Source: Enchytraeus crypticus (taxonomy: Eukaryota; Annelida; Clitellata; Enchytraeida; Enchytraeidae). Taken from it: a stretch of 64,000 nucleotides of DNA. Shown piece after piece: positions 1,064 to 41,300 of this stretch. Below the pieces are notes generated by a model that saw only the letters and a list, made by a program, of their open reading frames with translations, did no database searches and was not told where the DNA came from. Both the position numbers and the translations under genes were made by a program. The stretch is from the NCBI GenBank assembly GCA_905160935.1, contig CAJHZI010000534.1, forward strand, positions 407,501 to 471,500, given 5' to 3'. How positions within the stretch are numbered: the first letter of the stretch is position 1; each line of letters begins with the position of its first letter.

Positions 1064-2710
1064 GTAGGCCTATAACACTGTAGCTTCCATATAATATTAA
1101 ATGATAACCATCTTTACTTTAAATTCAGTTTAACTAGGTTTGGGATACGAATAGACTTTCTCCACTCCTCTCTATGCCATGCCATACCACCCGTCAGGTC
1201 CCATATAGTCTCTTCTATTCGTTGCGTTAAATATTGTAGAAATTTTTGAAGCCACGGCGCTCACCAACCAAATGCCCTTTCTGACGTTGGTTTGGATCTT
1301 AGTTTTTCTCTCTTTAACATTAAATAGTTAATATATAATCAAACTATAAAGATAAATAAGCAGTTTTTAATGGTGTGATATGGTTAAGAAGGCTGTTTCA
1401 GAATTTCCGGTACGTTGGTGGTTCCACCGCACTTCTTTTAAATGGCAGATCTTCGGGTGAATTGAACTCTAGCGGGTTCAAATCCCAGCCGCGCTGGTCT
1501 GAGAGTACAATCTCGGACGTTCACTGGACTGGTTATACGACAAATGGAATAAATTTGCTAACGGTTTAAACATTTTGTATTAAAAGTGATAGATATCGAC
1601 ATAGTTGATCATTTCACTATAATGTGTGTTTACTTTACTTTATCCTTCTTCCCATGCTAAAATAATAAAAATGCTCATGTCTCACCTAGTCAAAGCTGAG
1701 AGTAGTCAACAGCTAAAGGATATCCTCTACGGTCCCTGAAAGATTATTCGTGTAGACGCTAGCTGTTATTTGCCAACAGCAAGTTGCCAGATAATGATTA
1801 TTCGTTTATTGGATTCACTGTAGCAACTGCGTCTGTCAAGTGTACTATTAAAAGAAAATAGTCCAGAGTACTCTCAACAACTTGCTGATGTCTTGTAATC
1901 GATTGGATTGATTTATAGACCTATTGTTTTCCCGATTTATTTATTACAATGCAATCTGCAGGACTAGTACCTACCTAACGAAAACTCTTGTTAGATTGAT
2001 TGATTAATTGATTAGAAATAGCATAACCTACAGATTCAGGCGTTATTTGATGAGATCTATTGATCTATTTATCGATTGATTGACTGGTAATTAACGGCTT
2101 AACCAGCAGTATCAGGAGCTATTTAATGAGAACTCTTGACTCATTAATTGATTGACTTATAGATTGACTGATTGGTAAAAGCTTAACTTGCAAAATCAGG
2201 CGATACTTGATGAAATCTATTGATCAATCGATTTATTGATTGATTGGTGACAGCATAACCTGCAGGATCAGGCGCTACTAGGTGATAATTATTGATCGAT
2301 GGATTGATTGAGTAATTTATTGGTAGGTGTTCTGGTTGGTTGGTTGATCGATTGATTTATTGATCCATCGATTGATTGATTTATTGATTGATTGGTGACA
2401 GCGTAACTTCCAGGATCAGACGCTACTAGATGAAAATTATTGATCGATTGATTAATTTATTGGTAGGTGTGCTGGTTGGATTGTTAGTCGATTGGTTGAT
2501 GATTGATTGATTGATTTATTGATTGATTGACTTATTGATTGATTGACTGAATGAGTGGTTGATTGATTGATTGGTTGATTTAATTGATTTATACAGCTAA
2601 ACCTGCAGGATCAGACGCTACTAGATGAGATTCGACAGCTACAGACAGACGTTGGGTTTGGTGACCCGAGCTTTGCTGTATCTCCCTCTGCCTCTGCCAG
2701 CTGCTGCTAA
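914..2710 (+). CDS. CFAP70: CFAP70, 3' end (last two exons)
   Basis: Partial gene; upstream exons lie left of the window. CFAP70 is a cilia- and flagella-associated axonemal protein with C-terminal TPR repeats. Seen: exon 914-1063 (50 codons, phase 0 at both ends) reads [14 protein letters not shown], then AEVWAYLCL and [11 protein letters not shown], the typical last TPR of the family. Exon 2597-2710 reads [16 protein letters not shown] and then VGFGDPSF, matching the conserved GFGNPSF-type end of vertebrate CFAP70. Here a 12-residue Ser/Ala-rich tail (SPSASASCC) follows before TAA at 2708-2710. Donor is AAG|GTAGGC at 1064. The acceptors are odd: the first is TGTA microsatellite running into TAG, and the second follows a long TTGA-rich tract with degenerate copies of the exon start. 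Identity comes from remembered family sequence and is confident; expression is not shown. Confidence 0.88.
1115..1310 (+). repeat. Dispersed repeat C copy
   Basis: Copy of a family of about 300 bp that recurs throughout the window. Its order is CATCATCTTCCC head, TTTAACTAGGGTCGGGAT, GCGCTCACCAACCGAATGCC, then GACACGTGCAG and CCGGACACAACACGG at the far end. This copy covers the front two thirds. Confidence 0.75.
1375..1640 (+). repeat. SINE family A copy
   Basis: Contains a pol III B-box-like GGTTCAAATCCC, then GAGAGTACAATCTCGGAC, GACTGGTTATACG and GTGATAGATATCGACATAG, ending in a TTTACTTTACTTT tail. The same order recurs at 5819, 15225 and 31560, showing a tRNA-derived retroposon. Confidence 0.75.
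2004..2445 (+). repeat. Degenerate tandem copies of the CFAP70 last-exon start
   Basis: Five copies begin (first codon after the acceptor-equivalent position) at 2022, 2098, 2182, 2254 and 2402. Each is open for 13 codons in the real exon's frame and stops at TGA (2061, 2137, 2221, 2293, 2441). Translations are [52 protein letters not shown] and [13 protein letters not shown], against [13 protein letters not shown] in the real exon. Four of five keep AG at the acceptor; copy 2 has GG. TTGA-rich tracts separate the units. Confidence 0.85.
2597..2710 (+). CDS. CFAP70: CFAP70 last exon
   Basis: 37 codons plus TAA. Acceptor is TTTATACAG at 2588-2596. Contains the family's C-terminal VGFGDPSF motif followed by a short Ser/Ala-rich tail. 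The upstream 580 bp carry degenerate copies of its first 13 codons. Confidence 0.87.
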   Translation, partial: LNLQDQTLLDEIRQLQTDVGFGDPSFAVSPSASASCC

Positions 2711-6539: not shown

Positions 6540-7666
6540 TCTATGTATGTATAGGTGTAGTGCAGCCGATCCAAGCTGGTATTGGGGTACGCAGTGGTGG
6601 ATCCCTGTGTGGCGATTTGGAGTTTTGGAAAATCACCATCTATATTGCACAAAACGTTCACATTATCCAGTTCCATTCTGGTGAAATTTCACCAAAACGT
6701 AGCTGGATAATATGGATTGCCTATGTTCATGATTTTTTCTAGCATTTATGGACCATAGGTGTAAAAGAAGTTTTCTCTACTACTTCGTTGTTCTGGACTA
6801 TCTCAAATAGATGTATTTGGACTGCTTTTAGGTACAGTTAAACTGAAGTATTGTTTACATCCGGCCACGCTAATGTTTACGTTTGGAAATTTGTATTGAC
6901 TAGTTATTAAAATTATTAATTCACTAGATTTAATGTTGTCATTTTAAAATTTTTTATCATAAATTTTCTGATAAAAGCTGTTAGACGATTTAAAGTAATG
7001 ACTTGTGGTGTTGCGTGTTTACTTTTTACTTTACTGCATAAATAAATATCATACATTCACAGGACTGGTTATACGAAAAACGGACTAAATAGCCTAATAG
7101 CCGATCTTATAAACGAAAAGATAATCTCGCCGATATCAATCTCTACCATTTGACTTTATCCTCGAGATAACTACAAATCTGCTTCTTGTATCTTATTTTC
7201 TATTCTCAACTTTATCTTGAGCCTGTTATATCATATTTCAAGAATTCAAAACGTTTGCGCGGATTTCGCGCTCTCCTATTGGCTGGAGCCACCTGTGACG
7301 GTTGAAAGTCAGCCTCCTGGCGACGACTTTGTTTTAATCTAATGGTGACATTATCCGCCCGATCTCGACAAGATACAGTTCCGTCACATGTAGCTGAAGT
7401 CAGCTCAGATGCCGAGCGACATCTCGTTCATAGTATGCAAAAGCGACTTTCGGCGACGATAACCTTCTGATTGAAACTTCATAGGATTGCCAATAAGGGA
7501 TCATTTTAAACATGTGATATTAAAATTGATTGATATCAACTTAGTTGATAATTTCACTATATGGCGTGTTTAATTTCTAGCCTACATATTGCACAGTTTT
7601 ATATTGAAAAGTTGATGCATAAATGAAATTATCTTTTATGATGAGAGCATATCTGTTTCGTTAAAT

Positions 7667-17800: not shown

Positions 17801-20800
17801 TTGTAGACCATCAACGAGCAGTTTATTCGCAATCACCCGCAAGGTCTGGTCGGCATGCTCGAGGCTGTCATGGACTTCTTTCCGAAGCACTACGTAAAGT
17901 TACGAGATGTTACGACTGGGTCTTCAAAAGGGTGAGTAGTACTCTTTGTTAAAGACTCTATGGTGAGTTGTGCTCTTAGTTAAAGACTCTATGGTGAGTA
18001 GTGCTCTTTGTTAAAGACTCTATGGTGAGTTGTGCTCTTAGTTAAAGACTCTATGGTGAGTTGTGCTCTTTGTTAAAGACTCTATGGTGAGTTGTGCTCT
18101 TAGTTAAAGACTTTATGGTAAGTTGTGCTCTTTGTTAAAGACTCTATGGTGAGTTGTGCTCTTAGTTAAAGACTCTATGGTGAGTAGTGCTCTTTGTTAA
18201 AGACTCTATGGTGAGTTGTGCTCTTAGTTAAAGACTCTATGGTGAGTAGTGCTCTTTGTTAAAGACTCTATGGTGAGTTGTGCTCTTAGTTAAAGACTTT
18301 ATGGTAAGTTGTGCTCTTTGTTAAAGACTCTATGGTGAGTTGTGCTCTTTGTTAAAGACTCTATGGTGAGTAGTGCTCTTTGGTGCGACCTGTGCTTAAA
18401 TTTCCATTTCTGGATTTCCCTTCACTTTGGATTTACTTTCTGGATTTTGGAATTTGCACCGTTTTTGGACCTTCTTTTTGCTCGCCGGCTTGAATTTGTC
18501 TTAATGGTGCTCGATGTTGTCATTGATGACTGTAGCACTCTAATTGTTGTTATTATTATTATTATGGTTATTATTTGCTAAAGACTCTAAGGCTCATTCC
18601 TGGTGTGAGTTTCATGACTCAATCTGATGGTTGATTTGTGCCCACAATATTGGAATGACTTTTTTCTTTACTACTTTTAGAAAACAAAAGATTTTAATTT
18701 TTAGAAATTGTTACAAAATTTCTAAAATGAATGGGAGAGATTTTCATAGTGTATGGGACTGAGAGGAGTGGAGAACGTCCATTCCTATCCCACCCCTAAT
18801 TAAACTGGGATTAAAGGGAAGATGATGATGACTTGCAGAAAACGATACCTTAAAAGAGTTTGATTGGTGACCATATTTGCTAATTATAATCTTCCCCTGA
18901 ATTGCAGCTCAGCCAAGTTCATCATCCTCATTATAATCATCATCATCTTCCCCTGAATTGCAGCTCAGCCAAGTTCATCATCCTCATTATAATCATCATC
19001 ATCTTCCCCTGAATTGCAGCTCAGCCAAGTTCATCATCCTCATTATAATCATCATCATCTTCCCCTGAATTGCAGCTCAGCCACGTTCATCATCCTCATT
19101 ATAATCATCATCATCTTCCCCTGAATTGCAGCTCAGCCAAGTTCATCATCCTCATTATAATCATCATCATCTTCCCCTGAATTGCAGCTCAGCCAAGTTC
19201 ATCATCCTCATTATAATCATCCTCATCTTCCCCTGAATTGCAGCTCAGCCAAGTTCATCATCCTCATTATAATCATCATCATCTTCCCCTGAATTGCAGC
19301 TCAGCCAAGTTCATCATCCTCATTATAATCATCATCATCTTCCCCTGAATTGCAGCTCAGCCAAGTTCATCATCCTCATTATAATCATCATCATCTTCCC
19401 CTGAATTGCAGCTCAGCCAAGTTCATCATCCTCATTATAATCATCATCATCTTCCCCTGAATTGCAGCTCAGCCAAGTTCATCATCCTCATTATAATCAT
19501 CATCATCTTCCCCTGAATTGCAGCTCAGCCAAGTTCATCATCCTCATTATAATCATCATCATCTTCCCCTGAATTGCAGCTCAGCCAAGTTCATCATCCT
19601 CATTATAATCATCATCATCTTCCCCTTGCAGCTCAGCCAAGTTCATCATCCTCATTATAATCATCATCATCTTCCCCTGAATTGCAGCTCAGCCAAGTTC
19701 ATCATCCTCATTATAATCATCATCATCTTCCCCTGAATTGCAGCTCAGCCAAGTTCATCATCCTCATTATAATCATCATCATCTTCCCCTGAATTGCAGC
19801 TCAGCCAAGTTCATCATCCTCATTATAATCATCATCATCTTCCCCTGAATTGCAGCTCAGCCAAGTTCATCATCCTCATTATAATCATCATCATCTTCCC
19901 CTGAATTGCAGCTCAGCCAAGTTCATCATCCTCATTATAATCATCATCATCTTCCCCTGAATTGCAGCTCAGCCAAGTTCAGCCAAGTTCCATCATTCAT
20001 TAATCATCATCATCTTCCCCTGAATTGCAGCAAGTTCATCATCCTCATAATCATCATCATCTTCCCCTGAATTGCAAGTCATCATCTTCCCCTGAAGCTC
20101 AGCCAAGTTCATCATCCTCATTTAATCATCATCATCTTCCCCTGAATTGCAGCTCAGCCAAGTTCATCATCCTCATTATAATCATCATCATCTTCCCCTG
20201 AATTGCAGCTCAGCCAAGTTCATCATCCTCATTATAATCATCATCATCCTTTATCATTCCTTAAATCTCCGTTTAATTAGGTTCGTGATTAAACATTTCC
20301 ATTCGTTTTAGAAAATTTTGCTGTAATTTCTGGAGCAAAAGCGCTCACCAACCAAATGCTCTTACTGACGTTGGTTTGGATCCTTTTGCTTTGTCGTCTT
20401 TTATGACTTGTGCAGTCTACGGTTGGTCTATTCTTCAGCAACCCAGTCACAACACTGGCTAGTTATAATAAAACAGAAAAATTGCATTAATAATATCTAT
20501 TGCATTGATCGGCCTAAAGTTACGCTTGATATGATTAACTATGTATTATTGATTGATAGATTATATATTGATTGACTGATTGATATTAATTGAAAATTTA
20601 TGTATTAATTAAATACATGGGGTTGTAAAGTGTGTAACAAAATACCAAAAAAAGGTGAATAGATTGATTGATTGATCGATCGATTGAGTGATTGATTGAT
20701 TTGATTGATTAATTAATAGATTCATTGATTGACTGACTGAACGATTGATTGATTAATTTGTTGATTGATTGACTGAATGAGTGATTGATTGATTAATTGA

Positions 20801-28660: not shown

Positions 28661-31600
28661 TATTTTTATTATTTGATAATTTAGTATATGATATATATTT
28701 TTAGCATTGGATTGATTTGTGTTTGACATTGGATTGATATTGTGTTTGTATAATATATTTATATATTAATTTATTAGTATATTAATTGACTTTTAGATTA
28801 TTTTATTTTATTTGAATAGTTTATTTTAATAATATTTTTAATTTTCGACCCTATAATCAGTTTTATTTTCAGGATTTGTCTTGGTGAATTTGTTAATATT
28901 GTCTGTTCTTGATGTGTGTACTCTTCAGAGAGTCTGGTTGACTGCACGTGTTCGCTAGAGGCGCCCACACCACGACTGAGCGAGCACATAATAACAGAGA
29001 TCAGTTCAATCTGCTCCTCTCACCTCAAAGCCGTCAACGACATTCCTCGTCTTTACCGCAGAACCAACAGAGAGGTGCGTCGTGCGTGCGTCATACGTGC
29101 GTCATGCATGCGTCATGCGTGCGTCATGCGCGCGTCATTCATGCGTCATGCGTCGTGCGTGCGTCATGCGTCGCACGTGCGTCGTGCATGCGTCACGCGT
29201 CGTGCGTGCGTCATGCTTCCTAAGTCATCGTCATCATCATCATCATCATCATCTTCCCTTGAATCCCAGTTTAACTAGGGTCGTGATGCGAATAGACTGT
29301 TTCAAATCCTCTCTGTCCCACACCATATCATCCATTAGTCAATCCCCTATTGGAGACTTTGCCATTAGTTTAAATTTGTGTAGCAATTTCTGAAGCTTAG
29401 GCGCTCACCAACCGAATGCCCTTTGTGGCGTTGATATGGATCTTAGTGCTTTAGTCGCCTTCTAGGACACGTGCAGTCACTGGTTGGTCAATTCTTCGAA
29501 CAACTCGGACACAACACGGGGATATCATGCTTCCTAAATCGAAAGTTCAAAAAGAGGGCGGATTTAGCACACTTGGTTTAACTGCGCGCCAAATAAAGAA
29601 TTTAAGCTGCGTCGGCCCAGTTAGTTCATGGATGAGTGATTAGCTTTAAAGACCGAATGTCGATAGCTTAGAATGAAAATATCTTCCCCTGGTGTAGGAA
29701 GATTTTTTTTAAAGCCGTGCCAGTTGAAATCAGTGCTCAAATAAAAGGCAACTATTAATATTACCCATGGAGTTAAGAAAAAAATTAACGGCAGTTAAAA
29801 AATTAACGATTTAAAAAAATCATTGGCATTTTAACATAATAACTGATTGAAAGGAAAGCATTAAACTGAACGTAACGCTGTTTTCATTCAAGAACTTTGT
29901 TTACATTTCATTTTCTGTATCTATTATCTATCTCTATTACCCAGCTGATAAAAATCAAATGGGCATGTATGATTCTAAAACTTGCAAATGAATCTAAGGG
30001 CAGCAGAATAGGACATGGTATAGTAAAAAGGTGTAGGCTATGTTTTGTAAGTTTCATACACACGACACTGGTATTTACAAGTATTGCAATGCAGAATTCA
30101 TGTAGCCCAACAGTAACTCGTCGCTGTCGTATCACTTGCGTACAAAAGCGTTTTCAGAGGACAGCACTACATTACAATCTCCTGTTCCAGTGCTGTAGCG
30201 TCAGCCGCAGCAGTAATGTATCACACACGACTCAGTCCAAATTTCTTCTGCTGGTAAATTACTTTAATTTTAGCCCTGAAATATTTAGGTTCGCCAGCCT
30301 AACCTGTGCCAATCGAGAGCCTATCTTAAATTGCTGACCTTAAAATAAATAAAAAGAGAGCCCCTCTCTCAGCTGATACCGTAAATGAACTTTTGTGTCA
30401 TATCAATTAGCTCAATAAATAAACAGTAGAGAGACATCTCTGTCATCATCCTTTGCTGCAAAACAAACGTTAAATCTTAACAATTATCAATATAAATATA
30501 TGCTAGTATACATGACAATAAATTACAGGTTTATTAGTCCAAAAATCCAATTTTACAATAAAACATATTTTCGATTAAAATATCGATTAACTGCGCGATT
30601 AATTGATTAATTGTACGATTAATCGCGATTAATTTTTTAATCGATCTGCAGTCCTAATTTTTATTAAATTTATTTCTGTCTAATTATTATTCTATTGTAT
30701 TGCAGATGCCCACAAAACCTTCCTCATACATAGCGCTGACAGTGAAGCCTATCTCAGAGTTCCTTCAGGAGCTCAAGTCCATCGTGTCCGAGAAGAGTCG
30801 AGTTCTGTGGGTCTCAAGAATCCTACAGTCTGTCACTGAGCAGTTAGTACTAGTGTAGTAGTAGTACTTGTGTACTAGTTCAAGTGTGCTAGTAGTACTA
30901 GTGTACAAGTTCAAGTGTAATATTACTAGTGTAGTAGTAGTACTAGTGTAATAGTTCAAGTGTAATATTACTAGTGTAGTAGTATTACTAGTGTAATAGT
31001 TCAAGTGTAATATTACTAGTGTAGTAGTAGTAGTACTAGTGTAATAGTTCAAGTGTAATATTACTAGTGTAGTAGTAGTACTAGTGTAATAGTTCAAGTG
31101 TAATATTACTAGTGTACCAGTAGTACTAGTGTAGTAGTAGTACTAGTGTAATAGTTCAAGTGTAATATTACTAGTGTACCAGTAGTACTAGTGTAGTAGT
31201 AGTACTAGTGTAATAGTTCAAGTGTAATATTACTAGTGTAGTAGTAGTACTAGTGTAATAGTTCAAGTGTAATATTACTAGTGTAGTAGTAGTACTAGTG
31301 TAATAGTTCAAGTGTAATATTACTAGTGTACTAGTAGTACTAGTGTAGTAGTAGTACTAGTGTATTAGTACAGATGTAGTAATACAGGTGTATAAGTAAA
31401 AGTGTATTAGTAGTGGAGGTGTAGTAGTAGTACAGGTATATTATTTCAAGTGTACTGGTACAAATGTATTAGTACTAGTGTGGTCCTCTTACTACAAGTG
31501 TTTCAGAACACACGTTCTATTACACGTGTATTAGTATAAGTGTTTTAATTTACTACTTTTTAGAATGTCTAAATAACTCAATGTGTGTGCTAGGAAGTTT

Positions 31601-34059
31601 CAATTTCCAGTAGAGGTGATCGGAGAGTAAAATCTTTGACATTCATAGGACTGGTAGAGTGAATAATTTGGCTAAGCTGCCTAATGGTTAAATAATATGT
31701 TATATTAAAAGTGATAGATATCATCTCATACGACCATTTCTGCATAATCATCTCATACGACCATTTCTGCAAAACCATATGTTTTTATCTATCGACGTGT
31801 ATTTAAAGCAAAACTGGTAAAGCTATGGTTAACGTTAGTTTCTTCACTCAAAGGCGATGTCAGTGACGGGCGAGCCCAGGATTTGCACCCCTCACATTCT
31901 GATCCGCGGTCCAGTATCTAACCGACTTGCCACTGGCTCCAGTGAGTCATTTACTCTTACTATACAGAGTGACCGACCCATATCTGGACGCACTACACGG
32001 CAGACTGACACACAGACAGACTGAGAAACAGACATTCTGACAAACAGACAGGCTGACACAGACAGACTGACACACTAACAGACTGACACATTGACAGACT
32101 GACACACAAACTGACACACTGACAGACTGACAAACAGACATTCTGACAAACAGACAGGCTGACACACAGACAGACTGACACACTGACAGACTGACACAAA
32201 GACAGACTGACACATAGGCATACTGACACACATATAGACTAACACATAGGCAGACTGACACACAGACAGACTTACACATAGGCAGACTGACGCAGACAGA
32301 CTGACACGCAGACGGACTGAAACATAGACGGATTAACATACTGGCGGACTGACACACAGACGGACTGACAAACAGACAAGCACACAGACAGACTCAGACA
32401 GACGGACACACAGATGGTTTGACGACCAGACTGGAGGACATACAAGACGAGCGATTTAACTAATGATTGATAAAAAAGCTGAAGCAAAGGTTTACGTCAG
32501 TTTCCTCACTCGAAAGCGACGTCAGTGACCGGCGAGCTCAGGATTTGAACCCGTCACATACTGATCCGCGGTCGAATATCTTAACGACTTGGCCGCTGGC
32601 TCCAGCCAATGATTGATTGATACTTGTGACAGATACCTGACTATAGATTGACTGATACTTGCTACAGAAACCTGACTATAGATTGATTGATACTTGTGAC
32701 AGATACCTGACTATAGATTGATTGATACTTGTAACAGATACCTGACTGTAGATTGATTGATACCTGTGACAGATACCTGACTGTAGATTGATTGATACTT
32801 GTGACAGATACCTGACTGTAGATTGATTGATACTTGTGACAGATACCTGACTGTAGATTGATTGATACTTGTGACAGATACCTGACTGTAGATTGATTGA
32901 TACTTGTGACAGATACCTTACTATAAATTGATTGATACTTGTGACAGATACCTGACTATAGATTGACTGATATTTGTAACAGATACCTTACTATAGCCAC
33001 GGACGTGTTGACGTCAGTGCGTAAGATGGAGGAGAGTTTGAAGAGGTTGAAGGCTGCTCGGGGCACTACGACGGGCGGGGGGGCTCACGGGGCGACCGAC
33101 GATGATAAGATCAGACATCAGCTACTGCTCGACGTCAAAGAATTCTCCAGACAGGTACGAGCTGCTGTATAGAGACAAAATCAAGTTTAAAAAAAAATTA
33201 TTAGAGCTACGTTCAGTATAGAGCTACGTTCAGTATAGAGCTACGTTCAGTATAGAGCTACGTTCAGTATAGAGCTACGTTCAGTATAGAGCTACGTTCA
33301 GTATAGAGCTATGTTCAGTATAGAGCTACGTTCAGTATAGAGCTACGTTCAGTATAGAGCTATGTTCAGTATAGAGCTATGTTCAGTATAGAGCTATGTT
33401 CAGTATAGAGCTATGTTCAGTATAGAGCTATGTTCAGTATAGAGCTATGTTCAGTATAGAGCTACGTTCTGTATAGAGCTACGTTCAGTATAGAGCTACG
33501 TTCAGTATAGAGCTACGTTCAGTATAGAGCTATGTTCAGTATAGAGCTACGTTCAGTATAGAGCTACGTTCAGTATAGAGCTACGTTCAGTATAGAGCTA
33601 TGTTCAGTATAGAGCTATGTTCAGTATAGAGCTACGTTACTGCTGTAATTGTAGTTTTAATATGAATAATTGACTTTGCAAAGATTTAAAGCAATCTGCT
33701 TCAGCAATTCTTTTAAGCAGCTAGATAGCCTCGAGTAGCCGGGCGACGATTCAGGACGTATTGCTCGAAATTTCTTTCCGCAGCGAACTTCATCTAATTT
33801 TCTTTCTCCTAACCTTTCAAGTACTGTTTCATGTTTGATGTGCTCCCAATATTGAATTTTTAGGATTCGTCTGAGGCATCTTTGGGGAAAACAGTTAATT
33901 AATTTATTATTATTGCAATTAATAAATTTATTTAATATTACATTTCAGATAAAGAACTTGAATGTGGCACTGACAGATGTTGAGGCGTATGGCAGACTAC
34001 TCGAGTTTGTGGAAAGTTCCATCAGCACTGCTGCTGTGTCAACAACAACAACAGCATGA
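8751..34059 (+). CDS. COG2: COG2, conserved oligomeric Golgi complex subunit 2 (18 exons)
   Basis: Complete gene. COG2 belongs to lobe A (COG1-4) of the COG tether, a peripheral Golgi complex that captures vesicles recycling Golgi enzymes. Exons: 8751-8819, 9959-10120, 10959-11024, 11428-11508, 13065-13168, 14441-14546, 16098-16277, 17807-17931, 20851-20977, 21967-22106, 22896-22957, 24235-24398, 25695-25916, 26899-26974, 28929-29074, 30706-30842, 32983-33154, 33949-34059. They sum to 2250 nt, 749 codons plus TGA, with all phases matching; the human protein is about 738 residues. Recognised blocks include NKDYADFVNLSTNLVGMDK near residue 70, LRTYATIDKMRDAE near 230, PGNPNVFHEKY near 340, QASVKALRAHPSYNTF, RCWDSDVF with HRFWKLSLQL, VNDIPRLYRRTNRE, and SVRKMEESLKRLK near the end. 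The start is supported by an in-frame TAA four codons upstream. Many introns carry tandem repeats touching the splice sites. Confidence 0.95.
8905..9025 (-). repeat. SINE family B copy
   Basis: Minus-strand copy of a tRNA-derived repeat: GGAGCCAGTGGCGA, GTCGGTAAG, GACCACGGATCAGTAT, then GTTCAAATCCTG (B box), ending in GAGGAAACTAAC. It sits between COG2 exon 1 and its degenerate copy. Confidence 0.75.
9103..9150 (+). repeat. Degenerate copy of COG2 exon 1 end plus donor
   Basis: Aligns to 8795-8842, including the start of the intron. The coding part reads FNKKDFLK against FNKEDFMK in exon 1, and GT is kept at the donor (9128). An upstream in-frame TAG (9086) and no acceptor suggest a decayed duplicate. 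Confidence 0.75.
9210..9385 (-). repeat. Dispersed repeat C copy
   Basis: Reverse copy: GGTTGGTGAGCGTCTAAGCT, then CCCGGTAAAACTGGGAT and GGGAAGACGATGA. Confidence 0.75.
9600..9865 (+). repeat. CTAATTACTT-type pyrimidine-rich array
   Basis: Imperfect tandem units of CTCTAATTACTTATCTC in COG2 intron 1, about 90 bp before the exon 2 acceptor. Confidence 0.9.
9959..10120 (+). CDS. COG2: COG2 exon 2
   Basis: 54 codons, phase 0/0, acceptor TTTGTAG, donor TTG|GTACGA. Holds the best conserved N-terminal block (AMIELINKDYADFVNL). Confidence 0.94.
10141..10300 (+). repeat. ACACCAGTTCTGTACATT array after COG2 exon 2
   Basis: Imperfect units of about 20-25 bp (TTACACCAGTTCTGTACAT), beginning about 20 bp inside intron 2. 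Confidence 0.85.
10310..10475 (+). repeat. Dispersed repeat H with TTGA tail
   Basis: Order: GATCTCGCTTTCTCCTGTGG, CCAGTCGTCATCATGTGG, GGCGAGGAACCGGACATTAA, then ATTGATTGTTTGATTGATTG. Other copies are at 15475, 48325 and 55985 (end only). This suggests TTGA tracts can be retroposon tails. Confidence 0.75.
10959..11024 (+). CDS. COG2: COG2 exon 3
   Basis: 22 codons, phase 0/0, acceptor TTCTGTAG, donor GTG|GTAAGT. Reads VGMDKAINNLIHPLSNMK. Confidence 0.93.
11428..11508 (+). CDS. COG2: COG2 exon 4
   Basis: 27 codons, phase 0/0, acceptor TTTTTCAG, donor AAG|GTAGGC. A predicted coiled-coil segment rich in E, K and Q. Confidence 0.88.
12425..12690 (+). repeat. Minisatellite seeded from a LINE 3' tail
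   Basis: About five units of 48-63 bp with TTAGAGTGCTACTGTTATAT and TTGCAACGTAGCATAAC. The opening words equal the reverse complement of the LINE 3' terminus (compare 39045-39085). Confidence 0.88.
12885..13015 (-). repeat. Solo 3' tail of LINE family
   Basis: Reverse of the tail found at 18380-18575: TTAGAGTGCTACTG, then AGCACTATTGAGATAGAT. A 5'-truncated retrotransposition product. Confidence 0.7.
13065..13168 (+). CDS. COG2: COG2 exon 5
   Basis: 104 nt, leaves phase 2. Acceptor TGTTGCAG, donor CAG|GTTAGT. Continues the coiled coil (MAESVEKMEKLLG) into a Ser/Gly linker. A 13-bp array with CCAGGT motifs begins about 20 bp into the intron. Confidence 0.9.
13189..13252 (+). repeat. 13-bp array GACCAGGTCATGT after COG2 exon 5
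   Basis: About five nearly perfect 13-bp units. Each contains CCAGGT, resembling the AG|GT junction of the exon 5 donor 20 bp upstream. Confidence 0.92.
13310..13620. repeat. (GA)n, (CT)n and (TA)/(TG) microsatellites
   Basis: Short runs at 13320-13342, 13464-13490 and 13540-13610 in COG2 intron 5. Confidence 0.85.
13995..14340 (+). repeat. Dispersed repeat D, longer copy
   Basis: (CT)n, GTGCACTGTCTTATGGCAG, GTATATAACGCCTTCACTC, GTCCACGTATTAGTGGATC, and a partly duplicated downstream portion. Confidence 0.7.
14441..14546 (+). CDS. COG2: COG2 exon 6
   Basis: 106 nt, enters phase 2, leaves phase 0. Reads LVERVATEFNKLQFYV, matching LERIATEFNQLQF of vertebrates. Donor CCG|GTTAGT. Confidence 0.93.
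14596..14930 (+). repeat. (ATC)n, repeat D and repeat C in COG2 intron 6
   Basis: ATC run at 14598-14617, repeat D at 14620-14740 and a repeat C head at 14780-14930. The open frame across it has no protein character. Confidence 0.75.
15225..15465 (+). repeat. SINE family A copy
   Basis: Full-length-looking copy: GGTTCAAATCCCTGCC, GAGAGTAATATCTCGGAC, CACTGGACTGGTTATA and GTGATAGATATCAACATAG. Repeat H follows at 15475-15630. Confidence 0.78.
15840..15960 (+). repeat. 48-bp repeat, about 2.5 copies
   Basis: Units of TTATAATTAAATGGGTTTAC and ATTTTATTGTTTTC, upstream of COG2 exon 7. Confidence 0.85.
16098..16277 (+). CDS. COG2: COG2 exon 7
   Basis: 60 codons, phase 0/0, acceptor TGTGTAG, donor GAG|GTTGGT. 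Contains LRTYATIDKMRDAENLF. Confidence 0.94.
16280..17806. other. COG2 intron 7
   Basis: Apart from repeat G, it holds AT-rich sequence without recognised content (16520-17100), a repeat E fragment (-) near 17100-17210 and repeat C at 17540-17770. No exon seen. Confidence 0.6.
16300..16435 (-). repeat. Dispersed repeat G copy
   Basis: Minus copy: TTTAACGTCCGTTTCC, GATGTCAGGGACGTCCCCC, then TCGATTCACCC. Tail is (ATT)n at 16418-16440. A tRNA-like SINE (GAGGCCATTGGTTCGTATTC) follows at 16440-16520. Confidence 0.7.
17807..17931 (+). CDS. COG2: COG2 exon 8
   Basis: 125 nt, phase 0 in, 2 out. Acceptor ATTGTAG, donor AAGG|GTGAGT. The donor is the first member of a 31-bp array in which GTGAGT recurs. 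Confidence 0.92.
17932..18385 (+). repeat. 31-bp array of splice-donor-like units after COG2 exon 8
   Basis: GTGAGT (GTAAGT twice) occurs at 17932, 17963, 17994 and on to 18366, 15 positions at exactly 31-bp spacing with no indels. Unit: GTGAGTTGTGCTCTTAGTT then AAAGACTCTATG. Two unit types (CTCTTAG, CTCTTTG) largely alternate, giving a 62-bp higher-order period. The first GTGAGT is the real donor. Confidence 0.97.
18386..18575 (+). repeat. Solo LINE 3' tail
   Basis: GCACCGTTTTTGGACCTTC, CTCGCCGGCTTGAATTTGTC, GTGCTCGATGTTGTCATTG, then (ATT)n. Directly follows the donor-like array. Confidence 0.75.
18740..18830 (-). repeat. Dispersed repeat C head, reverse
   Basis: Ends AAACTGGGATTAAAGGGAAG then GATGATGATG. 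It points away from the 56-bp array that follows. Confidence 0.7.
18885..20250 (+). repeat. 56-bp minisatellite in COG2 intron 8
   Basis: About 24 units, nearly identical, with a few deleted ones (19621, 19980-20100). Unit: CTTCCCCTGAATTGCAGCTC, AGCCAAGTTCATCATCCTCA, then TTATAATCATCATCAT. The unit resembles the head of repeat C, and a full repeat C copy follows at once. Each unit also contains a pyrimidine-rich tract and GCAG, like a 3' splice site. Confidence 0.97.
20251..20470 (+). repeat. Dispersed repeat C copy flanking the 56-bp array
   Basis: CTCACCAACCAAATGC, GACGTTGGTTTGGATCC, GTGCAGTCTACGGTTGG, and CAGTCACAACACTGG. Confidence 0.78.
20640..20845 (+). repeat. TTGA/GATT tetranucleotide tract before COG2 exon 9
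   Basis: GATTGATTGATCGATCGATT-type repeats run to within about 6 bp of the exon 9 acceptor. TTGAT fits the animal branch-point pattern YTNAY. Confidence 0.93.
20851..20977 (+). CDS. COG2: COG2 exon 9
   Basis: 127 nt, phase 2 in, 0 out. Acceptor TTGAATACAG, directly after a TTGA-rich tract; donor GAG|GTAAGA. Contains GGYDFVVNAVFPE and PGNPNVFHE. Confidence 0.93.
21085..21285 (-). repeat. Dispersed repeat C copy
   Basis: GGGCATTCGGTTGGTGAGCG, then TCCCGACCCTAGGTAATC and GGGAAGATGATGACGATG. Confidence 0.75.
21665..21870 (+). repeat. About 63-bp array before COG2 exon 10
   Basis: Three to four units of TCTCATATACTGGTTCAATT and GTTCAAATGCAGCCTATTTG. Confidence 0.92.
21967..22106 (+). CDS. COG2: COG2 exon 10
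   Basis: 140 nt, phase 0 in, 2 out. Acceptor TTCGTCAG, donor CAG|GTTTCA. Contains QCSSQASVKALRAHPSY and WSLPVYFQIR. Confidence 0.94.
22110..22895. other. COG2 intron 10
   Basis: Begins with imperfect TTATCTGGTGCTTTTTGCTG repeats (22108-22310). Contains a non-LTR 3' end (TTTTGGTGAAATAAAGATTG near 22526-22548, as near 47212) and a partial SINE B (22765-22850). Confidence 0.6.
22896..22957 (+). CDS. COG2: COG2 exon 11
   Basis: 62 nt, phase 2 in, 1 out. Acceptor TATTGTAG, donor ATG|GTTGGT. Continues FQEIAGALETSLLTPF, matching FREIAGSLEAALTD of vertebrates. Confidence 0.88.
23440..23975 (+). repeat. Repeat C - repeat F - repeat C cluster in COG2 intron 11
   Basis: Repeat C parts at 23440-23590 and 23890-23975 flank two repeat F segments (TGCATAGGGCC near 23670, TGTATAGGGCCCTGGGCTC near 23765) with (ATT)n tails. 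Confidence 0.7.
24235..24398 (+). CDS. COG2: COG2 exon 12
   Basis: 164 nt, phase 1 in, 0 out. Acceptor TTATTTCAG, donor GAG|GTATTA. Contains LWECLERCWDSDVFL and HRFWKLSLQLISRYSTW. Confidence 0.93.
24405..24605 (+). repeat. Dispersed repeat E copy
   Basis: CAGTGCACTGCCAAGTGG, AGGTACATATTCATACTC, CCATAAGAGCACTC and GTATGGCTTCTGAGGTGG. The same order is at 28078 and, reversed, at 37030. Confidence 0.78.
24605..24910 (-). repeat. SINE B copy with inverted duplication
   Basis: Full SINE B at 24605-24750 and a second copy of its 5' part at 24861-24910, joined by duplicated and inverted AT-rich sequence (see the 59-bp palindrome). Confidence 0.8.
24804..24980. repeat. Perfect 59-bp inverted repeat
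   Basis: Arms 24804-24862 and 24922-24980 are exact reverse complements; the 59-bp spacer contains the duplicated SINE B end. A third, shortened direct copy lies at 24763-24804. Confidence 0.95.
24985..25110 (-). repeat. Dispersed repeat G copy
   Basis: CTCCTCAGCACATTTCTTTT, GTGGGGACGTCCCTTAC and ATCCCAGGATGAGGAAATG. Confidence 0.75.
25400..25565 (-). repeat. SINE-like repeat I (with a second copy at 26370-26530)
   Basis: The two share GATTAA, CCATGG or CAATGGGC, TTGAACCTGGGCCAC or TTGAACCCAGGCCAC, and GGCGAACATTCTAAC or GGCGAACAATCTAAC. TTTGAACC reversed is a B-box-like GGTTCAAA, so minus-strand tRNA-derived SINEs are likely. Confidence 0.6.
25695..25916 (+). CDS. COG2: COG2 exon 13
   Basis: 74 codons, phase 0/0, donor AAG|GTATTA. 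The Ser/Thr-rich first two thirds match the poorly conserved linker of vertebrate COG2; the end (NVAALVTDSQIIL) fits the following helix. The acceptor is weak: ACACAG at 25694 or AAGCAG at 25706, both in frame, a four-codon difference. Confidence 0.78.
26780..26870 (+). repeat. Dispersed repeat G fragment
   Basis: AATAATAAAGGTTGAACGTC, then AATGTCAGGGACGTCCCCC, just before COG2 exon 14. Confidence 0.72.
26899..26974 (+). CDS. COG2: COG2 exon 14
   Basis: 76 nt, phase 0 in, 1 out. Acceptor TTATTTCAG, donor GAG|GTTGTA. A weakly conserved helical segment; chosen for phase, splice sites and position. Confidence 0.72.
27065..27198 (-). repeat. SINE B copy that runs into a minisatellite
   Basis: Minus copy whose 5' end (ACTGGCTCCAGT) becomes the unit of the following array. 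Confidence 0.85.
27184..27452 (+). repeat. 17-bp array ACTGGCTCCAGTGCAGT
   Basis: About 16 units, mostly identical in the second half. ACTGGCTCCAGT is the terminal word of the adjacent SINE B. Open frames in several phases are repeat artefacts. Confidence 0.97.
27453..28070. other. COG2 intron 14, AT-rich part
   Basis: T-rich sequence with two or three copies of TTATGTTTTCTTGATTTTTT (27833-27920). No gene or known repeat was recognised. Confidence 0.6.
28078..28440 (+). repeat. Dispersed repeat E, long copy
   Basis: Continues past the usual block into TTAATCCTGGGGG, CATGGTGAGGTGGGTCCCC, GCCTCTTACGTACACGC, GGTCCAACCACACCCGAG and CACAACACGGGG. A reverse copy of the far part is at 40695-40870. 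Confidence 0.75.
28929..29074 (+). CDS. COG2: COG2 exon 15
   Basis: 146 nt, phase 1 in, 0 out. Acceptor CTCTTCAG, donor GAG|GTGCGT. Contains VNDIPRLYRRTNRE, a family hallmark. The intron opens with repeats of GTGCGT. Confidence 0.94.
29075..29215 (+). repeat. GTGCGTCATGC-type array beginning at the COG2 exon 15 donor
   Basis: The first six bases of intron 15 are GTGCGT, and GTGCGTC / ATGCGTC units of about 7-11 bp continue for 140 bp. Confidence 0.95.
29228..29520 (+). repeat. Dispersed repeat C, near-complete copy
   Basis: (ATC)n head, TTTAACTAGGGTCGTGATGC, CGCTCACCAACCGAATGCCC, then AACTCGGACACAACACGGGG. A good reference copy for the family. Confidence 0.82.
29530..30705. other. COG2 intron 15, remaining part
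   Basis: A low-repeat stretch that may be a DNA-transposon relic. It ends with ATTAATCGCGATTAAT, a perfect 16-bp palindrome near 30619-30634, and CGATTAA words, as seen at some hAT termini. No transposase was found. The 441-bp open frame at 29897-30337 shows no family features. Confidence 0.4.
30706..30842 (+). CDS. COG2: COG2 exon 16
   Basis: 137 nt, phase 0 in, 2 out. Acceptor TATTGCAG. Reads MPTKPSSYI, then LQSVTEQ, which joins to YLTIATDVL of exon 17 without a gap against vertebrate COG2. Donor is GTTAGT at 30843; an alternative GTACTA three bases on would break the phase. The intron starts directly in a GTAGTA-type array. Confidence 0.88.
30843..31365 (+). repeat. About 45-bp array beginning at the COG2 exon 16 donor
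   Basis: Units of AGTAGTAGTACTAGTGTAAT and AGTTCAAGTGTAATATTACT start directly at GTTAGTACTAGTG, the first bases of intron 16. About 11 units, then irregular GTAGTA/TACAAG sequence to about 31560. Confidence 0.95.
31560..31740 (+). repeat. SINE family A, diverged copy
   Basis: GGAGAGTAAAATCTTTGAC, ATAGGACTGGTAGAG and AAAGTGATAGATATCA. The B box is degraded. Confidence 0.65.
31810..31942 (-). repeat. SINE B copy left of the CAGACTGACA array
   Basis: GAGCCAGTGGCAAGTCGG, TCCTGGGCTCGCCCGTCAC and AAACTAACGTTAACC. Confidence 0.8.
31980..32420. repeat. CAGACTGACACA-type array
   Basis: Imperfect 10-18 bp units (CAGACTGACACACAGA) for about 440 bp. Minus-strand frames rich in Cys, Val, Ser and Gln are artefacts. 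Confidence 0.95.
32473..32607 (-). repeat. SINE B copy right of the CAGACTGACA array
   Basis: GAGCCAGCGGCCAAGTCG, GTTCAAATCCTGAGCTCGCC. Its end touches the GATTGATTGATACTTG array. Confidence 0.82.
32610..32982 (+). repeat. 35-bp array of acceptor plus exon-start units before COG2 exon 17
   Basis: AG occurs at 32631, 32666, 32701, 32736, 32771, 32806, 32841, 32876, 32911, 32946 and 32981, exactly 35 bp apart. Unit: GATTGATTGATACTTGTGAC, then AGATACCTGACTGTA. The exon itself starts ATACCTTACTATA. Spliced at any upstream copy, the frame meets TGA (in GATTGA) after about five codons. Confidence 0.97.
32983..33154 (+). CDS. COG2: COG2 exon 17
   Basis: 172 nt, phase 2 in, 0 out. Acceptor GTAACAG at 32976-32982, the last of 11 copies at 35-bp spacing; donor CAG|GTACGA. 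Contains SVRKMEESLKRLKAAR and DDDKIRHQLLLDV, with a Thr/Gly-rich insert between. Confidence 0.93.
33200..33645 (+). repeat. 17-bp array AGAGCTACGTTCAGTAT in COG2 intron 17
   Basis: About 26 units with a C/T variant (TACGTT, TATGTT). Starts about 45 bp after the exon 17 donor. Confidence 0.97.
33717..33881 (-). pseudogene. Non-LTR retrotransposon C-terminal fragment
   Basis: Minus strand stays open and reads RCLRRILKIQYWEHIKHETV, then LERLGERKLDEV, the C-terminal region of many animal LINE ORF2 proteins. Same type as 58385-58577. Confidence 0.75.
33949..34059 (+). CDS. COG2: COG2 exon 18 (last)
   Basis: 36 codons plus TGA at 34057-34059. Acceptor ACATTTCAG. C-terminus ends in a Thr run (AVSTTTTA). 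Confidence 0.9.
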   Translation: MKNLNVALTDVEAYGRLLEFVESSISTAAVSTTTTA

Positions 34060-38398: not shown

Positions 38399-41300
38399 CT
38401 GTAGTAGCAATAAGTTTAAAAGCGTTCAGACCGTATTAAAATAATTATGCACTATCCTATAGGATTACTTTACATAGATGCGAGGGTCGAGAGCGGATGA
38501 CGTTTATTAACAGTCTTAGCAAATGAATGCAGTTAACTGAAACAGAGATGATCAGAGCAACAATGAACAGAGACATATGGAGGAATATGACCATGACCGC
38601 CCAGGCCTGGAACAGGCACGGCTCTTAGAGAAGAAGAAGACGATCCTATACGATTACTATTTACATAGAGATTGAGCCGGTGTCCTAATGTGGTAGGCTT
38701 TCTATATTTTCTACATTTTAAGGATTCTACCGTCTGATTCTCCGTTGTGATTAAATTAACGTTAATATCAATTTTATGGGTAAACAGGATTGTTTTCTCA
38801 GGGAATGACGCCCCTGCTCAATGAATGTTAATCGAAGGTGAGGAAGGCATAGGGACCTCGTCATAAGCAGAATCCCCAAAACAACAAGAATGAGTATTAT
38901 TTAAAGTTCCACTCGTATGTATACATGAAGAGGAAACAAAACATTGAGAAGAGTAGAAGCGTTATGTAGGGCCTACCATGGGTCTGTCAGTATGCAATAC
39001 ACTAGGAGAGATAATATTGATTTTAGCATTTTAAACAATATTTAGAGTGCTACTGTTGTTCATTGCAACATCGAGCGCTACGAAGCCAAAATCTAGCTGT
39101 CTAGCTATGTAGGTAAACTAAACGGTGAAAAATATCAAGATCTGATAAACCCGTTCAAATCGTGAACCTACAGTTAAATAAGTCGGTTTTGTATAGAAAC
39201 TTTATCCAGTTGCAGTGAAATATTTCACATAATTATTCTTTATAGATCAAGTAGGCCTATTTCATTAATTTCATTAAAGAGCATTAAATTAATGCGAGAG
39301 TAACTATTAATTCCATGGCTGTAGCTATTGGTTAATTTAATTCCCACTGTCGTAGTGAATAACTTTCTGAAATTAATCAATTCATGATCATTGTCATCAT
39401 CATCATCAACATTACCCTCATCATCATCATTGCCATCATGATCGTCATCATCATGATCATCATCATCAACATCATCATGAACGTCATCATCAACTTCATC
39501 ATCATCATTATCATCAGCGTCATCATCATCGCCATCATCCCTTGAATTTCAGTTTATCAAGGGTCGGGAATTCTAATTTTTTCTGTTCGCTTTAAAACAT
39601 TTGTAACAATTTCTGGAGTATTGACACTCAACAACCGAATGCCCTAATGTTATGCCATAATGACATAAAAAGAATGACGACGATGATAATAACGTTCAAG
39701 CGACGATGATGATGACGATGACGAAGATAGTGACGATGACGATGATGATGATGATGATAATAATGAAGATGGCGGTGACGATGACGATGATGATAATAAT
39801 GATGATGATGATGATGTTGATGAGGATGATGATAACGATGATGAAGATGATCACGATAACGATGACGATGATGACGATGATGATGATGGTGCTACATCAA
39901 ACCTTGATCACCGGATAATGTCTCTGGTAGAAGATGATGCAGGTAATGAAGTCCCACACGTTGAACTGAGGCCAAAGGACGTCCACGAATGAGAGGACTG
40001 AATAGCTGGTCTGCGAAGTGGAAAATAAGACAGACTTCTTAAAACTAACTTCTTAAGACATACATCCTTCTTCTTACTTCTTAAGACTTACGTCCTTCTT
40101 TCTTCTAACTTCTTAAGACTTACGTCCCTGATATCATTCTTGTATGATGAAACGGACGTTAAACCTTTATTATTTTAATATTATTATTAATACGATTATT
40201 ATTATTATTATTATTAAAGCTTAAAATTTGTATAATAGAACTTGTAAAAAATATTTTATCTTTGATTGATTCAAAGAGAGAATTCCATAAAGAGTGATTG
40301 AAAATATTAGTGGTGTTTATCACAAGTTCAGTTCAATAGGTAAAAGATCAGAGACATTCAGCGGGATTTCAATTCTAGGCTTTCGCTTCGAAGAAAAGAT
40401 AAGCTGAAAGACTTCTTGTTACTTTGGAATAATGCAAGGAAAAGGTGTTATGCACTGAGAGGGTATGGTTTTTCTAAAGAAGTATTTGAGGGAAGAATGG
40501 AATAAAATGGTTTAGAGGAAGACCGAGACTAGGGATGCTGACTGTTTTGTTAATTAATTCATATGTTGATATGAAGAGAAAGACAGAGGACAGAAAAATG
40601 TGGAGGAGTTATATACCATGGACCTTCCATTAGGCAATGCACTAAGAGAGATAGAGAGAGAGAAAAGTCTCACAAGAAGATTCAGGTTAAGGACTTACGG
40701 AAATCCCCCGTGTTGTGCTCGGGTGTGGTTGGACCACTACAGAATAGGGCAACCGCAAACAACCTGCTGCGTGTCGTAAGAGGCGACTAAGGCAGGAGCT
40801 GAGGATAGCAAGCGGGGACCACCTAACCATGAAATATTTTCCCCCAGGATTAAATGGTAATTAATCTTTCTAACTGAGGAAGGCAACGGGAAATCATCTT
40901 AGAAGTCAAACTTTTATAACATTAATTGTCAAACCTGCCACAACATAAAATCGCTGAGTCTGACTTCTCCAGACGTACGAACAAGAAGATCAGGTGGAGA
41001 GAGCTTGTGCGCGTAGAAACATTCCTCTATCAGTTTCTCGTCTATATCACTGCGTCAATCAATCGACCAATCAATCAATCAATCAATCAATTAATCAATC
41101 AATCAATTAATCGACCAATCAATCAAGCTATTAACTAAACCATGATTCTTTAATCAATCGGTCGATCGGTAGGCTACTCCATTAAATGAAACAGTGGGCC
41201 TACGTCATCATCATCGTAATCCTCCCTTTAATCCCAGTTTAACGGGATCGAGATAATTAAATGTATCAAGAAAAATAAATGAATCAATAAATCAATATTT

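Follow-up and report, generated by a model that had tools for sequence, protein, structure and literature searches.

Five short segments of the last intron of a gene in Enchytraeus crypticus resemble the start of the exon that follows them, and all five are open in its reading frame, raising the question of whether they provide alternative ends for the protein or are the traces of a repeat that grew at the splice site. We analyzed the window in which they lie (a 64,000-nucleotide stretch of contig CAJHZI010000534.1, positions 407,501 to 471,500 of the forward strand) together with further stretches, and conclude that they very probably represent a decaying splice-boundary minisatellite of the 'mirage' type that is rooted at the acceptor of the last CFAP70 exon, and is probably tolerated since its repeat unit suits an acceptor.

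The last CFAP70 exon and its upstream copies

The preliminary description assigned the gene to CFAP70, which encodes a ciliary protein, and comparison with the PDB bears this out. The peptide joined from the exon at 914-1063 and the exon at 2597 matches the CFAP70 chain 9ijj_k (E 4.4e-22) over 75 residues without gaps, extending to the C-terminus of that chain; the alignment crosses the splice (FARK/LNLQ), and the tail VGFGDPSF corresponds to VGFGNPSF in 9ijj_k. This continuity across the splice identifies 2597 as the true acceptor. The exon peptide is common to distant CFAP70 proteins, and hence the copies derive from the exon start rather than the exon start from the copies. The features at this end of the gene are listed below (window positions, all on the plus strand).

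771-912: TATG array before the acceptor of the penultimate exon, from the tandem-repeat table
914-1063: penultimate CFAP70 exon, with donor GTAGGCC after 1063; part of the joined-peptide match to 9ijj_k
1950-1988: u0, likely sixth and most decayed unit; AA at the acceptor, reads CNLQD and then a stop; 20/36 nt identical to the exon
2022-2060: unit u1; AG kept in a weak acceptor context; 26/36 nt
2098-2136: unit u2; acceptor AG lost (GG); 26/36 nt
2182-2220: unit u3; AG kept in a weak acceptor context; 27/36 nt
2254-2292: unit u4; strong acceptor-like site; 30/36 nt
2402-2440: unit u5; strong acceptor-like site; 30/36 nt; ACG at codon 7 as in the exon
2159-2589: tandem (GATT)n array of composite structure, oriented in gene sense (merged TRF rows); its end lies 7 nt short of the last intron base
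2597-2710: coding sequence, including the TAA, of the authentic last CFAP70 exon, from the alignment to the 9ijj_k C-terminus up to GFGDPSF
2779-2784: candidate poly(A) signal ATTAAA (motif)

The five copies reported previously (u1 to u5) are all present, with 26 to 30 of 36 nt identical to the exon start at 2597, and each is open from the acceptor through to a TGA. Other parts of that account hold only in part. The acceptor AG is copied in u1, u3, u4 and u5, but not in u2, and the copied part of the exon comprises about 12 codons (~36 nt) rather than 13. It ends at approximately GATGAGAT, with GATT-type repeat following in every unit, and codon 13 (TAT or TCT) and the TGA are themselves (GATT)n sequence where the exon has CGA CAG. 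The stop shared by all five copies is genuine but uninformative as evidence of design, because by its sequence alone (GATT)n presents a TGA once per 12 nt in each reading frame. Each copy is an exon start of ~36 nt set in a (GATT)n array, with 14 GATTGATT words located within 2238-2572.

The units, counted from u0, are spaced at 72, 76, 84, 72 and 148 nt, and the last lies 195 nt from the real exon because of extra GATT repeat. Identity to the exon forms a gradient from 20 to 30 of 36 nt, with the nearest copies (2402 and 2254) best preserved and the farthest (1950) most decayed, and the AG is retained in four of the six upstream units (four of five if u0 is excluded). Three copies have GCG (Ala) at codon 7, matching the residue of the vertebrate protein 9ijj_k, whereas the exon itself now has ACG (Thr).

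The sixth unit, u0, is likely to be genuine: it is in register exactly 72 nt upstream of u1. It has AA where the acceptor AG would be, and its sixth codon is a TAG in frame. It is outscored by no position outside the array in three plus-strand weight-matrix scans and its register is the best of 22 offsets, although in a both-strand scan it is only the fourth-best position outside the array. Local alignment does not find it significantly (76 of 1,000 shuffles for an alignment falling there) and reveals no significant further unit upstream of 2003, such that u0 is recovered only with the in-register profile.

The units appear to be restricted to this array. A consensus pattern allowing at most three mismatches matches three of the six sites (five copies and the exon) with none expected, and matches nowhere else in the window; a six-unit profile finds all six, with E values from 5e-11 to 3e-9 and no other window match below E 5. 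We considered and rejected a dispersed element, there being no other good unit match in the window; in the both-strand scan the minus-strand position 36836 scores 12.1 bits compared to 44-54 bits for the units. A search of the 524-Mb assembly (802 contigs) with a 96-nt query, skipping simple repeats, recovered two locations, each within this array, and gave no sign of a second allele.

The same assembly provides a view of the mitochondrial genome. Its best COX1 match is a contig of 15,205 bases in which 12 TGA codons are read through, and the order on one strand is nad3, nad2, cox1, trnN, cox2, trnD, a gap fitting atp8, trnY, trnG and cox3. This order was read by eye from open reading frames and ARAGORN predictions, discarding as chance four further ARAGORN hits, three of them on the other strand; gene names other than cox1 and the tRNAs are putative assignments. 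PMC2639372 indicates that nad3 beside nad2 and the block cox1-trnN-cox2-trnD-atp8-trnY fit annelids and Sipunculus, and PMC4866719 describes a protein-gene order common to many annelid families; from the mitochondrial evidence we read the host as an annelid in the broad sense. Five short COX1-like matches lie outside the mitochondrial contig (C361, C424, C796, C373 and C166), four of them with in-frame TAG or TAA codons, and are probably nuclear copies of mitochondrial DNA.

Tandem arrays at other splice sites

Arrays also meet splice sites elsewhere in CFAP70 and in the two neighboring genes COG2 (plus strand) and DHDDS (minus strand). Approximately 5.6 kb upstream of 2597 there is a second structure of the same kind, in which exon Y starts at 7012 (upstream-stretch numbering) with AACGTGGAGGCG following the intron end GATGAACAG. 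The intron contains GATGAGCAG joined to AATGTGGAGGCG 52 nt before exon Y, followed by GATT-type repeat, and GATGAGCAG again, without the exon part, 58 nt farther upstream. At exon X (6154 in the same stretch), a 32-bp GATT-based array ends 4 nt before the last intron base; this exon was read by eye, with one of the three frames of the stretch giving a CFAP70 exon. A search for further CFAP70 exons in stretch L004, using three frames against the PDB, gave no CFAP70 match and a single chance match to a nanobody chain (E 0.022).

We mapped 17 exons of COG2, with a joined frame that is open throughout and Pfam support for some exons. Its arrays start no more than 2 nt from the donors after 17931, 29074, 30842 and 31999, the last a GC donor according to the exon model, and end at, or no more than 10 nt from, the acceptors before 20851 and 32997. 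The individual features are as follows (window positions unless stated).

6848-7023 of the upstream stretch (L003): second CFAP70 mirage; one copy holds the acceptor together with 12 nt of exon start, and another only the acceptor
17931-18382: donor-side COG2 array of 31-bp head-to-tail units, 14.6 copies (TRF), with 15 GGTRAGT words (GGTGAGT or GGTAAGT)
29075-29216: donor-side COG2 array of GTGCGTCATGC units, beginning no more than 2 nt from the donor
30844-31481: donor-side COG2 array of TAGTACTAGTGTA-like units, beginning no more than 2 nt from the donor
31968-32414: 32-nt COG2 exon and adjoining 16-bp array; no adjoining GT donor, the frame fitting a GC donor (ACG/GCAGAC)
32611-32996: acceptor-side COG2 array, 11 copies of a 35-bp unit with GATTGATTGATA; 10 ACTRTAG words, the last being the real acceptor before 32997
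41055-41126: DHDDS array (minus-strand gene), (GATT)n in gene sense; its end lies 5 nt short of the last base of the intron preceding the exon at 41049

For the 32-nt COG2 exon, either the donor is non-canonical or the exon has been modeled wrongly. A large array at 18889-20076, with 21 copies of a 56-bp unit (96% matches), also lies in a mapped COG2 intron, away from splice sites.

For CFAP70 and COG2, the end of an array lies no more than 10 nt from 7 of the 37 splice sites, namely from 3 of 19 acceptors and from 4 of 18 donors, counting arrays with a TRF score of at least 100, a length of at least 60 nt and a period of at least 3. Circular shifting leads one to expect 0.44 such sites, and placing the arrays at random in introns 0.55; the observed count is reached in 0.00041 of shifts (a control that includes the zero shift) and in none of 3,000 placements. 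The thresholds and tolerances for these two genes were chosen after the arrays had been seen; other settings give 5 of 37 within 5 nt versus 0.23 expected, with the main CFAP70 site not among them, and 10 of 37 versus 1.80 expected with looser arrays and a tolerance of 30 nt. DHDDS and the upstream CFAP70 exons are nearer to a hold-out. DHDDS has 1 of 12 sites within 10 nt versus 0.08 expected (P 0.07, weak alone) and 2 of 12 at 15 nt (P 0.008), while the upstream CFAP70 exons have 1 of 4 within 10 nt versus 0.045 expected (P 0.04) and 2 of 4 at 15 nt (P 0.013); TRF merging places the array at exon Y 12 nt over the boundary, leaving it uncounted at 10 nt. Summed over the three neighboring genes, there are 9 of 53 sites versus ~0.57 expected, or 8 of 52 excluding the main CFAP70 site.

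Exon edges in COG2, DHDDS and upstream CFAP70 were set by open frame, GT/AG signals (with one GC) and the known features of the human proteins, with Pfam or PDB matches for some exons only. In DHDDS, exons D2 and D3 do not fit in phase, a small exon is probably missing, and the acceptors of D3 and D4 are uncertain.

The GATT repeats are strongly oriented. In the stretches searched, GATTGATT occurs in gene sense 40 times in CFAP70, 26 in COG2 and 9 in DHDDS, compared to 0, 0 and 1 occurrences of AATCAATC. These words cluster, and tracts are a fairer unit of count: all eight dense tracts (at least four words) in mapped introns are in gene sense, six of them belonging to arrays that end at an acceptor. 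The tract count covers mapped introns, leaving out tracts for which gene sense is unassignable or that are non-intronic (for example 2803-2839, and those in stretches L004 and L005). In the sense orientation (GATT)n contains no AG and approximately one YTRAY branch-site-like word per unit, and in antisense it has no YTRAY.

This composition could point to a non-coding role, in which the array would supply multiple branch sites and a U-rich tract and so reinforce or adjust splicing of the last intron. In sense, (GATT)10 has nine YTRAY words and no AG, against zero YTRAY in antisense; the sense bias across the three genes is 75 to 1; and there are eight YTRAY words in the last 60 nt at the acceptors CF2 and COG2 exon h, with 0-3 at the other 17 acceptors. 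However, mere tolerance also predicts a sense bias, and most acceptors of these genes have no such tracts, and we regard the role as improbable. The data suggest that sense GATT arrays survive at acceptors because they are compatible with acceptor function, not necessarily because they help, in keeping with a tolerated minisatellite.

Coding and splicing potential of the copies

A second alternative is that the copies provide alternative 3' splice sites, from which genuine CFAP70 isoforms would arise that carry 13 other residues in place of the VGFGDPSF end. With a stop inside the last exon such an mRNA would be expected to escape exon-junction-dependent decay, and an altered tail is presumably not obviously lethal, because in mouse the C-terminal TPR half of CFAP70 is described as dispensable for ciliary localization (PMC6162463). 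A literature search for CFAP70 and alternative splicing returned no paper on that subject by title.

We evaluated coding potential by parsimony over 105 topologies, pairwise pN/pS, comparison with the two other frames, and neutral simulation. An even spread of substitutions over codon positions had been set beforehand as one of two observations that together would count against decoy exons, and this one was found: the 28 changes on the most parsimonious topology fall 9, 10 and 9 at positions 1, 2 and 3 (P 0.96), and two equally short trees give 10, 9 and 9. The comparison of synonymous and nonsynonymous change that had been proposed is more equivocal. Pairwise pN/pS is low in frame, at 0.48 for all six sequences (0.47 under another path rule) and 0.51 for the five copies, relative to neutral simulation means of 0.76-1.15 overall and 0.76-1.08 for the six; the corresponding P values are 0.011-0.13 for six and 0.027-0.20 for five, the ranges depending on transition bias (ts/tv) and tree. 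However, pN/pS is 0.42 in the +1 frame (and 1.81 in the +2 frame), and because the +1 frame is just as low the signal is not tied to the coding frame. The five open frames and the low in-frame ratio speak for the isoforms, but under neutral simulation the probability that all five copies are open is 0.31-0.42. Weak constraint may act on the in-frame copies, but we infer that they are not maintained as coding sequence, and a coding function was set aside on this mixed result lacking frame specificity.

The capacity for splicing differs among the units. We derived an acceptor weight matrix from CFAP70 and COG2, using 18 further acceptors in these genes, and scored sites against 1,099 intronic AGs. 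The sites at 2254 and 2402 fall at percentiles 99.2 and 99.5 and the real site at 98.8, although two of the 18 matrix acceptors follow GATT-based arrays (COG2 exons h and q) and may favor such sites; those at 2022, 2098 and 2182 reach percentiles of only 62, 54 and 75. The best AG of the last CFAP70 intron by this matrix is at 1824 (9.8), outside the array. An inner CAG (+12) was rejected as an alternative acceptor, lying between the 9th and 69th percentiles in the five units and the real exon, and at the 85th in u0.

There is no AATAAA or ATTAAA between 2022 and 2596, so no copy has its own poly(A) signal, and splicing to a copy would consequently lengthen the existing terminal exon through an alternative 3' splice site rather than create a separate terminal exon. 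The proposal of alternative terminal exons with a 13-residue end thus lacks support, with two of the six units also lacking an AG (u0 in addition carrying a stop) and only 2254 and 2402 of the five copies being acceptor-like. Some cryptic or occasional splicing at these two sites is possible, but a functional decoy-exon reading is unlikely, and isoforms of the kind described above are decidedly so. That the array is an artefact of assembling or sequencing low-complexity tandem DNA, which is generally hard to assemble, is scarcely credible given that each unit departs from the exon at 6-16 of 36 nt, a divergence that neither collapse nor duplication errors create, and that the array lies within a 2.19 Mb contig, although our search of the same assembly is no independent check.

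The minisatellite reading is better than the decoy-exon reading, and it had been anticipated as a relic seeded at the acceptor; the composite units of GATT, acceptor and exon start, the broken likely sixth unit, the even spread of substitutions and the recurrence at other sites all agree with it. We envisage that a (GATT)n microsatellite at the acceptor slipped or recombined and that, judging from unit anatomy, a block of GATT, acceptor and ~36 nt from the beginning of the exon gave rise to several upstream duplicates, with copying proceeding from exon to intron. The end of the copied part, GATGAGATT, would offer microhomology to GATTGATT. The array would probably be tolerated, as sense (GATT)n by its composition is free of AG and repeats the branch-site-like TTGAT. 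Splicing most likely takes place at 2597, and 2254 or 2402 would be used now and then at most.

Mirages, related systems and wider implications

The closest parallel that we found is in amphioxus, where units of 150-160 bp in the gene BflGb6, each comprising the 3' end of an intron and the 5' part of an exon, are described as tandemly duplicated (PMC3087553). In that paper such structures are called 'mirages', after the Adh3 case, RT-PCR is described as suggesting that splicing is undisturbed, and degenerate mirage repeats are proposed as a route to new introns; imperfect mirages are reported in PGBD5, with troponin C also mentioned (PMC3902484). The CFAP70 structure fits this class in layout, as far as sequence comparison can establish. 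As in BflGb6, tandem units span the 3' intron end and exon start beside an authentic boundary; many but not all mirage units keep the AG or GT, as do four of six here; imperfect copies are known (PGBD5); and units at the cluster boundary escape homogenization. Mirage units range from 10 to 160 bp, which includes the CFAP70 spacings of 72-148 nt but not the final one of 195.

There are also clear differences from the amphioxus examples as described. The CFAP70 unit is built on a (GATT)n microsatellite with only ~36 nt of exon copied, and its copies are more diverged, the BflGb6 units being 81-100% identical. The evidence in amphioxus includes haplotype length variation and RT-PCR, whereas we draw the likeness from a single assembly. 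Mirages are reported from cephalochordates and the host here is an annelid, outside that range; in the portions considered of the literature searched on boundary repeats, none is described beyond amphioxus.

Other systems share individual features. The minisatellite of human IFI6 (6-16) provides several splice donors (Turri 1995, cited in PMC4526556), and from this brief account it similarly is a tandem repeat that multiplies a splice site; it lies on the donor side, with downstream units used as donors, while the CFAP70 array is on the acceptor side and its units are at most candidate splice sites. The COG2 array at 17931 is closer to IFI6 in layout than is that of CFAP70, so far as IFI6 is described there. 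Minisatellites in human segmental duplications likewise are tandem repeats that change exon-intron structure (PMC2812944), and the part of that paper considered contains no copies of an acceptor plus exon start. Intron gain by tandem genomic duplication, as in Rogers' model (cited in PMC3087553) and as the subject of PMC4974935, resembles the CFAP70 case in that a boundary is duplicated together with its splice signals, but differs in that no new intron or exon is shown at CFAP70.

Taken alone, the CFAP70 array is one more splice-boundary minisatellite. Its importance is raised by recurrence, with arrays meeting donors and acceptors of three neighboring genes far above chance placement. We tentatively suggest that splice junctions may perhaps be systematic birthplaces of tandem arrays in this annelid genome, with donor-copying arrays (GTGAGT, GTGCGT) downstream of exons, and AG-free, branch-site-rich (TTGA)n sense arrays upstream of acceptors that sometimes include exon starts. 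Intron ends would then be rebuilt from repeats of their own splice signals, and introns would keep fossils of earlier exon states, such as the GCG (Ala) at codon 7. If this is true genome-wide, mirages would be no amphioxus oddity but a general mode of intron-end turnover, with a bearing on the origin of introns and of alternative splice sites.
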